This document shows, in pieces, positions 19,630 through 23,195 of a stretch of 43,127 bases of DNA. Numbering within the stretch: the stretch's first letter is position 1; each line of letters opens with the position of its first letter. The position numbers were made by a program, and so were the translations under genes. The stretch spans positions 1 to 43,127 of the forward strand of contig JALZWN010000091.1 in assembly GCA_023300235.1 (NCBI GenBank), read 5' to 3'. Below the pieces are notes generated by a model. It saw nothing but the letters and a program-made list of their open reading frames with translations. It ran no database searches and was not told the DNA's origin. Source of the stretch: Mariniblastus sp. (GTDB lineage Bacteria > Planctomycetota > Planctomycetia > Pirellulales > Pirellulaceae).

Positions 19630-19642
19630 GGAAGGGTGGGTA

Positions 19643-19687
19643 GTGGAGGCTGTTGGAGTGGAGGCTGTTGGAGTGGAGGCTGTTGGA
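19643..19687. repeat. Three perfect 15-bp tandem repeats
   Basis: The unit GTGGAGGCTGTTGGA occurs at 19643-19657, 19658-19672 and 19673-19687 without mismatch, in the gap between the ApbE and Nudix genes and immediately upstream of the Nudix start. Copy number could vary between strains and might affect Nudix translation. Confidence 0.85.
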
Positions 19688-19702
19688 GGTGACTTTGATC
19701 GT

Positions 19703-21091
19703 TTAGCTGGTTTTTGCGGCGTCCGTGACTTCGATGCAGTCGGTGACGGGTTTGGAGCAGATGCCGCAGCTCGATTCGCCATCTTCATTAGTGACATTCG
19801 CCAGCCCACCGCAACTGCCTTTGACGGGTTTGTTATTGAAAATCGCGCCAACGGCCATTGCTAAAATCATCAAGCCAAACACGCACAAGGATGCGAAAAA
19901 CACCGGCCAGATCGACGTTGCTTCACTCGCAGTCTCGTTGGTGTTGCTTGCAAGTTGTTCACGCTGGGCTTCGTCGATGAACGGAAAGGTCTCTGAGCCA
20001 TAGCGTTTGTACTGTCCGTTGAAGTCACCGGTTCGTTCGATCAAATAGAAGTCGTTGCCGAGTTGGTTCAGCAGGTCGATGGCGGGTTGTCTGCCCATCA
20101 CCATGGCGGCGGTTGCGAGCGCGTCTGCGGTCATGCAATCGCCAGCTAAGATGCAGGCCGACGCGAGGTTGTGTTCGACGGGGCGAGCGGTAGCGGGATC
20201 GATGGTGTGCGAGTAACGTTTCTTTCCGACTCGGCGGAAGTTCTCGTAGTCGCCGGACGTTGCCACCGCTCCGTCACTGACTAACGCGACCGCTTCAGGT
20301 TTACCGTCGGGGCGATCGGGGTGCCTGACGCCGACCTTCCAAGCGGTTTTGTCGGTTCGGTGGCCGCTGGCTCTTACTTCGCCGCCGACCATGACCAGAA
20401 CGTTTTTGCAGTTTAGTGAGATTAGCTTTTCCCAAACTTGGTCGACCGCGTAGCCCTTGGCGATCGCGGACAAGTTGATTTGAACGTCCGGGTGGATTTT
20501 TTTGATGCCCGGCGGATCCATGCGCACGGTAAGTTTTTGGTAGCCCACGGTTTCAAGGCTTTGTTTGATCGCTTCGTCACTTGGTGGTTCAAACGAATCG
20601 CCACGTTGCCAGTCGCCTCTGCCAAAGCTCCACCGTTCCACCGCTGGGCCGACAGTGATGTCGAAGCTACCGTTGGTCAGTTTGCTGATGTCGATCGCTC
20701 GCTGCACGACCAAAGCGGTTTCTGCGTCGCACGCAATGAAGTCCGTTGACTTGGATGCATTGAATTTGCTGACGTGCGAATCGTCGATGTAGGTCGACAT
20801 CCGCTCGTTGATGCGGTCAAGTGTTTTTTGGACTACCGTCTCCAGGTTGGATTCGGTTAGCTCCGTTGGCGGATCGACGACGGTGACTTGATAGTTGATC
20901 GGCCCCATGCACTTGCCGGTTACTAGCAATGAAGCCAAAGGCTCTTCTTGGGGCTGATTGGTTTCGGCAGTTTGTGCGTGCACAGCGGTGGTTGTCCAAA
21001 CAAGCATCAGCCAAGCCGCCGCAAAGACTCCGCGGCGGACTCGGCGACGTAGCGCGTGGTTGGGTGGCGTTAAATTAGCGATCCCATGCAT
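19703..21091 (-). CDS. apbE: FAD:protein FMN transferase ApbE fused to NqrM-like C-terminal domain
   Basis: This 462-residue protein joins two maturation functions. Residues 1-39 form a Sec signal peptide ending in VHA. Residues 55-370 are ApbE, which attaches FMN covalently to Thr/Ser of NqrB, NqrC or RnfG-type subunits: MSTYIDDSHVSKFN, GSFDITVGP, INLSAIAKGYAVD, GGEVRASG, VATSGDYENF and YSHTIDPATARPV are all family blocks. After a linker, residues 396-418 form a membrane helix followed by KGSCGGL (C427) and three further Cys (C442, C445, C452). This pattern matches NqrM, the small protein needed to assemble the iron centre of Na+-NQR. The fusion suggests that this organism matures Na+-NQR with one bifunctional membrane protein. 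No nqr genes are in the window. ApbE is certain. The NqrM assignment rests on the helix plus KGSCGGL and Cys pattern. Confidence 0.9.
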   Translation of the reverse strand: MHGIANLTPPNHALRRRVRRGVFAAAWLMLVWTTTAVHAQTAETNQPQEEPLASLLVTGKCMGPINYQVTVVDPPTELTESNLETVVQKTLDRINERMSTYIDDSHVSKFNASKSTDFIACDAETALVVQRAIDISKLTNGSFDITVGPAVERWSFGRGDWQRGDSFEPPSDEAIKQSLETVGYQKLTVRMDPPGIKKIHPDVQINLSAIAKGYAVDQVWEKLISLNCKNVLVMVGGEVRASGHRTDKTAWKVGVRHPDRPDGKPEAVALVSDGAVATSGDYENFRRVGKKRYSHTIDPATARPVEHNLASACILAGDCMTADALATAAMVMGRQPAIDLLNQLGNDFYLIERTGDFNGQYKRYGSETFPFIDEAQREQLASNTNETASEATSIWPVFFASLCVFGLMILAMAVGAIFNNKPVKGSCGGLANVTNEDGESSCGICSKPVTDCIEVTDAAKTS

Positions 21092-21152: not shown

Positions 21153-23195
21153 CTAAGTGTCTTTTGCGATCCCGTACTTTTTAATTTTTCGGTCCAACGT
21201 GGATCGTTCGATTCCCAAAATCGAAGCTGCTTTGCTTTTGTTCCAGGTCATCGCTTGTAGCGTCGCTTCGATGTGTCGCTGTTCGACAAGCTCTAGCGAT
21301 TCAGGTTGGTATTCTTGGACGATCGTTTGCATGTCAAAATTGGACTCGCTGGCGGTCGTCAGGTTCGTCAGCGAAAGTTCATCCAATTGAATGATCTCAC
21401 CCCGCGCCAAAACTACACCGCGTTCGATCACGTTTTTCAGTTCGCGAACGTTGCCGGGCCAGCGATAGCGTTTGAGTTGATGTTGAGCTTGCGGAGAAAA
21501 CCCTTGGATCTTTCGGCCCGTTTCCGAGTTGTACTTTTGCAGGAAGTACTCGGCCAGTTCCATGATGTCTTCGGCGCGATGGCGGAGCGGCGGCACATCG
21601 ATCTGGACAACGTGCAAACGGAAAAACAAATCCTTTCGGAACGTTCCGTTGCGAACAGCCTCTTCCAGATTCCGGTTGGTCGCCGCGATGACGCGCACGG
21701 AGGCTTTAATTGCTTTGCTACCGCCGACGCGTTCAAACGGATGTCCTTCGAGCACTCGCAAAAACTTGGCTTGGATCGACGGGCTCATTTCGCCAATCTC
21801 GTCCAGCATCAGAGTGCCTTTGTCGGCCGCTTCAAACTTACCCGCCTTGCGGTCAGTCGCTCCCGTGAACGCGCCTTTTTCGTGCCCGAACAGTTCGCTC
21901 TCCAGCAACGATTCCGATAGCGCAGCGCAGTTCAGGCAAATGAACGGCCCGCGTTTTCGTTCGCTAGAAAAGTGCACCGCGCGAGCGACCAGTTCCTTGC
22001 CAACGCCGCTCTCGCCGCGAATCAAAACCGTCGCGTTACTCGGCGCGGCACGGCCGATTTGTTCGTGGACTTTGAAGATCGCGTTACTGGCCCCGACAAT
22101 CTCGCTCTGCACGCCCAGTTGGTCTTGGAGTTGATCGATCTGGTCTCTTGTTTTGGAGAGATCTTCGACCAGCTTTTGTTCGCGGAACCGAGTTCGCAGC
22201 GCAAGTGCGACGGTTTCGGCCACCGCTAGCGCGAACTCGAGGGCTTCAGAGTTCAAACCTTCTTTTGCTTGAGTCGAATACAAATGAACCAGCCCGATGC
22301 TGCGATTGCTCATCCGAATCGGAGCGGCGATCACGCTGGTGGCTAATACATGGCCAGATTCGTCGCGCATCCCCAACGCACTGTCGTCTTGAACGTCTCG
22401 AGCCAGCACCGCCTCGCCACGTCGCAACGCAGTCTCCGACAGGAACTTCGATACTCGTTGGTATTCAGGCTGGGCATCACTTCGCCAAGACAGAATCTCA
22501 AGGTGTTCTGGATTGACGGTTGTCGGTCGGTTGGCGGGGACCATCAAAATACCGCCCGCATCAACGTTTGAAATCTTAAACAAGCAGTCCAGCGCCATCT
22601 TGGCAATCGAACGTGGGGTACGCTCGTTGGCCAATTCAAACGCCAATCGGCATAGCCGCGTAGCGATTCGGGACTCGCCTGCTTCTTCCGAGGCTTCGTC
22701 GCCGATCAGCAAGTCCGGTCGTTGCTTGCGGTCTACGATGTTGGTGGGTTCGCTGATCGTCTTTGTCGCCAGCGTGTTGTGGGCGTCGCTGTCTTGGACC
22801 TCCAGGCCGACTACGGTTGGGCCGCCGATTTCGACTTTTGAGTATACTTTGCGTTCGTAAGCTTTGGACAGGTCGGTCACAAACGCCAGTTGAGAACCGG
22901 CGATCAAGATGATGTCGCCGGGTTTGAGGGTTTGGTCTCCGGTGACGCGTTCTTTGCCAATCGCGGTTCCGTTGCGACTGTTCAGGTCTCGCAAAACCCA
23001 ACTGCCCTCCGACAAAAAGATCTCTGCATGCTGACGACTGGCTTGATCTTCTTTGATGACGATCTGGCTGTTGGTAGAGCGTCCGATGGTGCAGGTGCGA
23101 CCGGGCATGAGTCGAAAAACGTCCGACCAGTTTTTGCCATCGCGAATTACTAAGTAAGCGATGCCCGGCGAGTTCTGATGGTTTTTTGGAGGCAC
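21153..23195 (-). CDS. FHA-GAF sigma54-dependent transcriptional activator
   Basis: This 680-residue regulator has four parts. A FHA phosphothreonine-binding domain (about 30-105) carries [14 protein letters not shown] and NSRNGT. A GAF sensor domain spans about 180-336. A short coiled coil (336-362) leads into the AAA+ sigma54 activator domain with Walker A GESGVGKE (394-401), the GAFTGA loop that contacts sigma54 (441-446) and Walker [10 protein letters not shown] Fis-type helix-turn-helix lies at 639-680. FHA input implies control by a Ser/Thr kinase, a signalling style abundant in planctomycetes. It starts at GTG 23195, with no better upstream codon. It is the first of four co-directional genes, but no sigma54 promoter was found in the intergenic DNA here, so its targets are unknown. 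Confidence 0.92.

Follow-up and report, generated by a model that had tools for sequence, protein, structure and literature searches.

Do the two factors that finish the sodium-pumping respiratory enzyme, which many other bacteria make as separate proteins, exist as a single polypeptide in some organisms, and if so, what would such a polypeptide do? In those bacteria, ApbE is the flavin-attaching enzyme that acts on the outside, and NqrM is a membrane factor whose cysteines are thought to serve the iron centre. To our knowledge, NqrM is the sole known factor for insertion of the iron-sulphur centre of the sodium-pumping NADH:quinone oxidoreductase (Na+-NQR), a poorly understood step. The question is raised by one reading frame in the window, the whole 43,127-nt stretch of Mariniblastus sp. 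DNA analysed here.

This frame (P0001; 19703..21091, minus strand) runs from an ATG for 462 amino acids without internal stops, as seen from the frame and its translation, and matches two Pfam families. Residues 1–40 (20972..21091, minus strand), with an Arg-rich start, a hydrophobic stretch and VHA-Q, are read as a predicted cleavable signal peptide that lacks the lipid-anchor Cys; [AGS]C was not found in the N-terminal hydrophobic stretch tested. The ApbE flavin transferase domain follows at residues 67–344 (20060..20893, minus strand), where PF02424 scored 265.2 bits against a cut-off of 25.6, covering profile positions 5–258 of 266 (266.6 bits in the whole-genome search). The NCBIfam ApbE model also matched, with a score under its cut-off, and solved ApbE structures matched residues 49–373 (best E 9.8e-55). 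Across the 18 fused rows of an alignment of relatives (A3), Asp323, Thr327 and His295 of the motif YSHTIDP (aligned as SH.IDP) were invariant; we take His295 to be the counterpart of Vibrio His257, in line with PMC12052999. The ApbE fold is completed within residues 345–395 (19907..20059, minus strand), which also include a linker that differs among the same 18 fused frames. The single membrane helix, residues 396–418 (19838..19906, minus strand), was assigned by hydropathy, the hydrophobic stretch spanning residues 391–421 (19-residue windows, ≥1.6). The NqrM part, its extent set by a planctomycete profile (A1), lies at 19730..19909 (minus strand) and carries KGSCGGL (Cys427) and then exactly three cysteines, Cys442-x2-Cys445 and Cys452. 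An earlier note on this DNA had claimed the complete secreted ApbE domain, the helix and the cysteine motif with three further Cys, and the order of ApbE, then membrane helix, then NqrM in one frame is hereby confirmed.

The identity of the tail was examined further. Comparison with the NqrM profile (PF04400, the former DUF539), which the earlier note had named beforehand as a check, gave a score above the cut-off of 22: 27.1 bits on residues 417–448, a modest value, and 28.8 bits with the tail alone. An NCBIfam search of the tail returned no NqrM match. We also used an HMM built from 44 unfused planctomycete NqrMs and zero fused rows, the broken row from genome G483 being left out. With it, 30 of 30 fused tails scored 76.8–112.3 bits (83.1 for the window tail), while 600 whole-tail shuffles peaked at 7.3 bits, and a further 600 in which the two tail halves were kept apart peaked at 13.9 bits, the top of all 1,200. 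Profile A1, which includes the window's own row, gave the window NqrM part 88.8 bits. Cys427, the CxxC and the third Cys after it were retained in 30/30 fused tails, with GSCGG or GTCGG as the motif. A search for solved structures of NqrM found none (best chance match, E 0.18). The tail thus resembles NqrM in its one membrane helix, basic stretch, GSCGG and three more Cys; it differs in forming the C-terminal end of a 462-residue ApbE chain instead of a small stand-alone protein, and in the C-x2-C-x6-C spacing of its last cysteines.

The nqrABCDEF operon that the earlier note had proposed to look for is complete in the window genome: its six genes, nqrA to nqrF, stand in order on contig C292, each above its NCBIfam cut-off. 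A pattern search located the ApbE substrate motif SGATIT at 242 in NqrC and missed that of NqrB, DGYTGAT, which was spotted by eye; FMN_bind matched NqrC alone in this genome. Cys27/110 of NqrD, Cys42/136 of NqrE and Cys68/74/77/109 of NqrF are present. Given a constant offset, these presumably sit at the Vibrio ligand positions. The fusion is unlinked from nqr in this genome, and the nqr contig extends 1.2 kb beyond nqrF with apbE absent from that stretch. A 14-pair hairpin with a T-run lies 3′ of nqrF, and the post-nqrF stretch has 2 terminator-like sites, not above shuffles (1.7).

Neither PF04400 nor profile A1 detected a second NqrM in the window assembly (94.8% complete), the single match being the fusion, as the earlier note had predicted. 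A second ApbE, without an NqrM tail, is encoded on contig C294; it could serve NQR, and this, like the position of the fusion away from nqr, counts against the fusion's role. This second ApbE (L030 2526-4706) adjoins a gene with a cytochrome c′-like end that scores just under the Pfam cut-off. In the 30 fused genomes, profile A1 likewise found no second NqrM, each having one, the fused one, and 29 of the 30 had one or more further ApbE matches. In G665, a genome from the window's genus (91% complete), the fusion was the sole ApbE and the sole NqrM found.

We surveyed planctomycetes in a phylum draw of 392 genomes and an order draw of 296 genomes. PF04400 matched in 22/392 genomes of the phylum draw, and all 22 were among the 67 that bear nqrF. 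Profile A1 added an NqrM in 33 of the 45 remaining nqrF genomes, in frames of 61–195 aa that are hence unfused, and found none in 13 chosen genomes without nqrF (0/13). The 67 nqrF genomes therefore divide into 8 with the fusion, 47 with a separate NqrM and 12 in which neither Pfam nor A1 found an NqrM (e.g., G024, G357, G054, G125 and G383). These 12 may have an NqrM-free Na+-NQR or a divergent factor, or their NqrM may have been missed. In the order draw, PF04400 matched in 55/296 genomes, 24 of the 55 being fused. The two draws together gave 75 NqrM-positive genomes: 30 fused, 39 with apbE and nqrM as neighbours on one strand, 2 with the genes on opposite strands and 4 without ApbE beside NqrM. 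All but one of them (74/75) had nqrF, the exception being G602 (72% complete). The NqrM part lay within 5 kb of nqrF in 23/30 fused, 36/39 adjacent, 2/2 opposite-strand and 0/4 other genomes. We had considered that fusion accompanies exit from the nqr operon, as the fused genes among the 22 genomes matched by PF04400 in the phylum draw are mostly unlinked, yet the order draw reversed this, and with 23/30 fused genomes linked overall we rejected the idea. Two lone NqrMs with an N-terminal extension and no neighbouring ApbE, L103 (G544) and L104 (G584), lie 170 kb and 996 kb from nqrF, respectively. The survey of planctomycete ApbE proteins for the same tail, which the earlier note had suggested, shows the tail to be shared; the interpretation of the frame as an ApbE-NqrM fusion is supported, with the fusion common in planctomycetes and not peculiar to the window organism.

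A set of loci from named organisms extended this picture. A first contig scan with the whole fusion protein as query yielded zero relatives, and a later scan yielded the loci, of which we considered the best 80 of at least 523 confirmed, ranked by likeness to the planctomycete query; 16 of the 80 overlap the 75-genome set. Among the loci listed, 48 are labelled Planctomycetota (27 fused, 20 adjacent and 1 without ApbE), and two without a phylum label (L169 and L172, with apbE and nqrM adjacent) are the same DNA as G528 and G025. Rhodopirellula baltica BR-MGV, R. sallentina, R. maiorica, Stieleria sedimenti and Roseiconus nitratireducens have the fusion, as do the chromosomes TBK1r and K23_9. 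Among these best 80 of at least 523, the 30 that belong to other phyla (25 Pseudomonadota, 2 Gemmatimonadota and 1 each Latescibacterota, Bdellovibrionota and Omnitrophota) include no fusion. In several proteobacterial plasmid records, apbE and nqrM annotated as separate genes align to the fusion as one piece in one frame.

PMC12052999 describes the Vibrio-type ApbE as a separate lipoprotein. The fusion resembles the ApbE of the Vibrio nqr operon (PF02424) in its whole catalytic domain, with motifs invariant among aligned relatives, and its relatives usually share the position after nqrF; it differs in having no lipid-anchor Cys and a C-terminal membrane helix instead. We scored a lipid-anchor-like Cys as [AGS]C where the first hydrophobic stretch ends, a post hoc rule that was loosened after stricter rules missed visible cases, the pattern having been noticed before the criterion was set. 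Such a Cys was present in 32/39 separate ApbEs versus 3/30 fused ones (Fisher p 1.3e-9, uncorrected for kinship). The stricter rules gave 22/39 and 18/39 for separate ApbEs and 3/30 fused under both, and the separate ApbEs that fail the rule mostly have, by eye, N-terminal membrane helices. Among the named loci listed, the contrast was weaker, the Cys being found in 7/25 fused, 13/19 separate planctomycete and 21/24 Pseudomonadota ApbEs, with 4 too short to score. Well-supported independent tree pairs for this trait numbered 4, very few, with a mean of 1.8 in the expected direction and 0.2 in the opposite one. Our reading is that, because the NqrM helix follows ApbE, a lipid anchor is no longer needed, and that the helix has probably replaced the anchor of separate ApbEs.

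In a tree built from 71 ApbE domains, the fused and separate states changed at least 12 times (about 23 with shuffled labels), 4 of these changes being forced by well-supported branches; gains and losses, fusion or fission, are counted alike. Fusion in place would be easy, because the genes run nqrF-apbE-nqrM with overlaps or short gaps. We rejected programmed frameshifting in the overlapping frames of G483, G507, G546 and G558, where GTG or TTG starts suffice by eye. In G483 (L115), the NqrM frame stops soon after GSCGG, by either an assembly frameshift or gene decay, and its ApbE neighbours that of the fused genome G511 on the tree.

What might the fused protein do? We think it probable that it is a two-headed maturation factor for Na+-NQR. 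The ApbE domain would be exported and would transfer FMN from FAD onto a Thr of NqrB and of NqrC; the chain would cross the membrane once, N-terminal side out and C-terminal side in; the four Cys of the NqrM domain would help form the NqrD/NqrE iron-sulphur centre from the cytoplasmic side; and the NqrM helix would keep ApbE at the membrane, standing in for the lipid anchor. The cysteine tail is placed inside because ApbE would be outside and there is one helix, and the charge pattern agrees: 0 Lys/Arg in the 15 residues before the helix and 2 in the 15 after, with a mean of 2.1 between helix and GSCGG in fused NqrMs and 2.5 in unfused ones. Replacement of the anchor would likewise put the NqrM cysteines in the cytoplasm. 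With its two domains predicted on two membrane faces, one chain could therefore serve both maturation steps, and it is plausible that it couples the flavin and iron steps. A bolder version, which we hold only tentatively and consider rather doubtful as a whole, would make the fusion a one-piece platform on nascent NqrBCDE that loads the periplasmic flavins and the intramembrane iron-sulphur centre from both faces simultaneously, with the two steps coordinated; planctomycetes would have fused the genes repeatedly for that gain, the helix would have replaced the lipid anchor, and the fusion would be genetic proof that NqrM acts cytoplasmically.

A fusion can exist on paper only, with NqrM also or mainly made from an internal start, or with the chain cleaved after synthesis. 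The fused genes descend from neighbours that are still apart in 39/75 genomes, some fused tails (e.g., G291, G397, G503 and G550) keep a Met at the would-be NqrM start, and the window fusion has a GTG at codon 397. Yet in the window frame no ATG lies close to where NqrM begins, and by eye no purine run resembling a ribosome-binding site precedes GTG 397. The scarcity of lipid-anchor Cys in fused ApbEs is also consistent with a chain that the NqrM helix tethers, so we regard separate production or cleavage as unlikely. The same scarcity would make the helix useful to an ApbE that had kept the tail as a mere membrane anchor after the loss of NqrM activity, and the 12 of 67 nqrF genomes without a detected NqrM lean the same way. 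The part beyond the helix, superfluous for an anchor, nevertheless keeps its motif and three Cys in every fused tail, and no other NqrM was found in any of the 30 fused genomes, which makes an inactive tail less probable still.

An error of assembly, joining two genes or bringing in a foreign contig, might be suspected from the 311 contigs of the window genome and from a fusion that, unlike that of most relatives, is unlinked from nqr. But G665, of the same genus, bears the fusion too, its ApbE pairing with the window's at a support of 99, and the recurrence in 30/75 genomes, with isolates and complete chromosomes among the carriers (R. baltica BR-MGV, Stieleria sedimenti, K23_9), leaves an artefact scarcely credible. 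We favour the two-headed maturation factor.

The fusion is a real, recurrent gene fusion of known parts. It goes unmentioned in the open literature searched, as far as the parts available of PMC12174285, PMC6209661, PMC12052999, PMC4014512, PMC8238504 and PMC11334425 go, and the founding NqrM paper or Pfam architecture lists may show it. According to PMC12174285 and PMC6209661, NqrM is tied to the intramembrane iron-sulphur centre, and apbE and nqrM follow nqrF in V. cholerae. ApbE also shares a chain with a partner in a kinetoplastid fumarate reductase that bears it as its N-terminal domain (PMC12052999); in that case the partner is the substrate of ApbE, whereas the planctomycete ApbE is fused with another maturation factor. 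With NqrM naturally attached to an exported enzyme, its cysteines are expected to lie inside, a testable orientation, and the flavin and iron steps can be knocked out separately within one chain, with G665 as the clean case. For annotation, the fusions pass for ordinary ApbEs, and the NqrM part is readily missed.

Two further features flank the gene in the window. A same-strand gene for an FHA-GAF-sigma54 activator (21153-23195, minus strand) lies upstream of the fusion, with about 60 bp between its end and the fusion gene. On the other side, a Nudix gene follows, with its likely ATG at about 19632, and the gap between this ATG and the fusion stop contains a G-rich 15-bp sequence repeated in tandem as three perfect copies (19642-19688).
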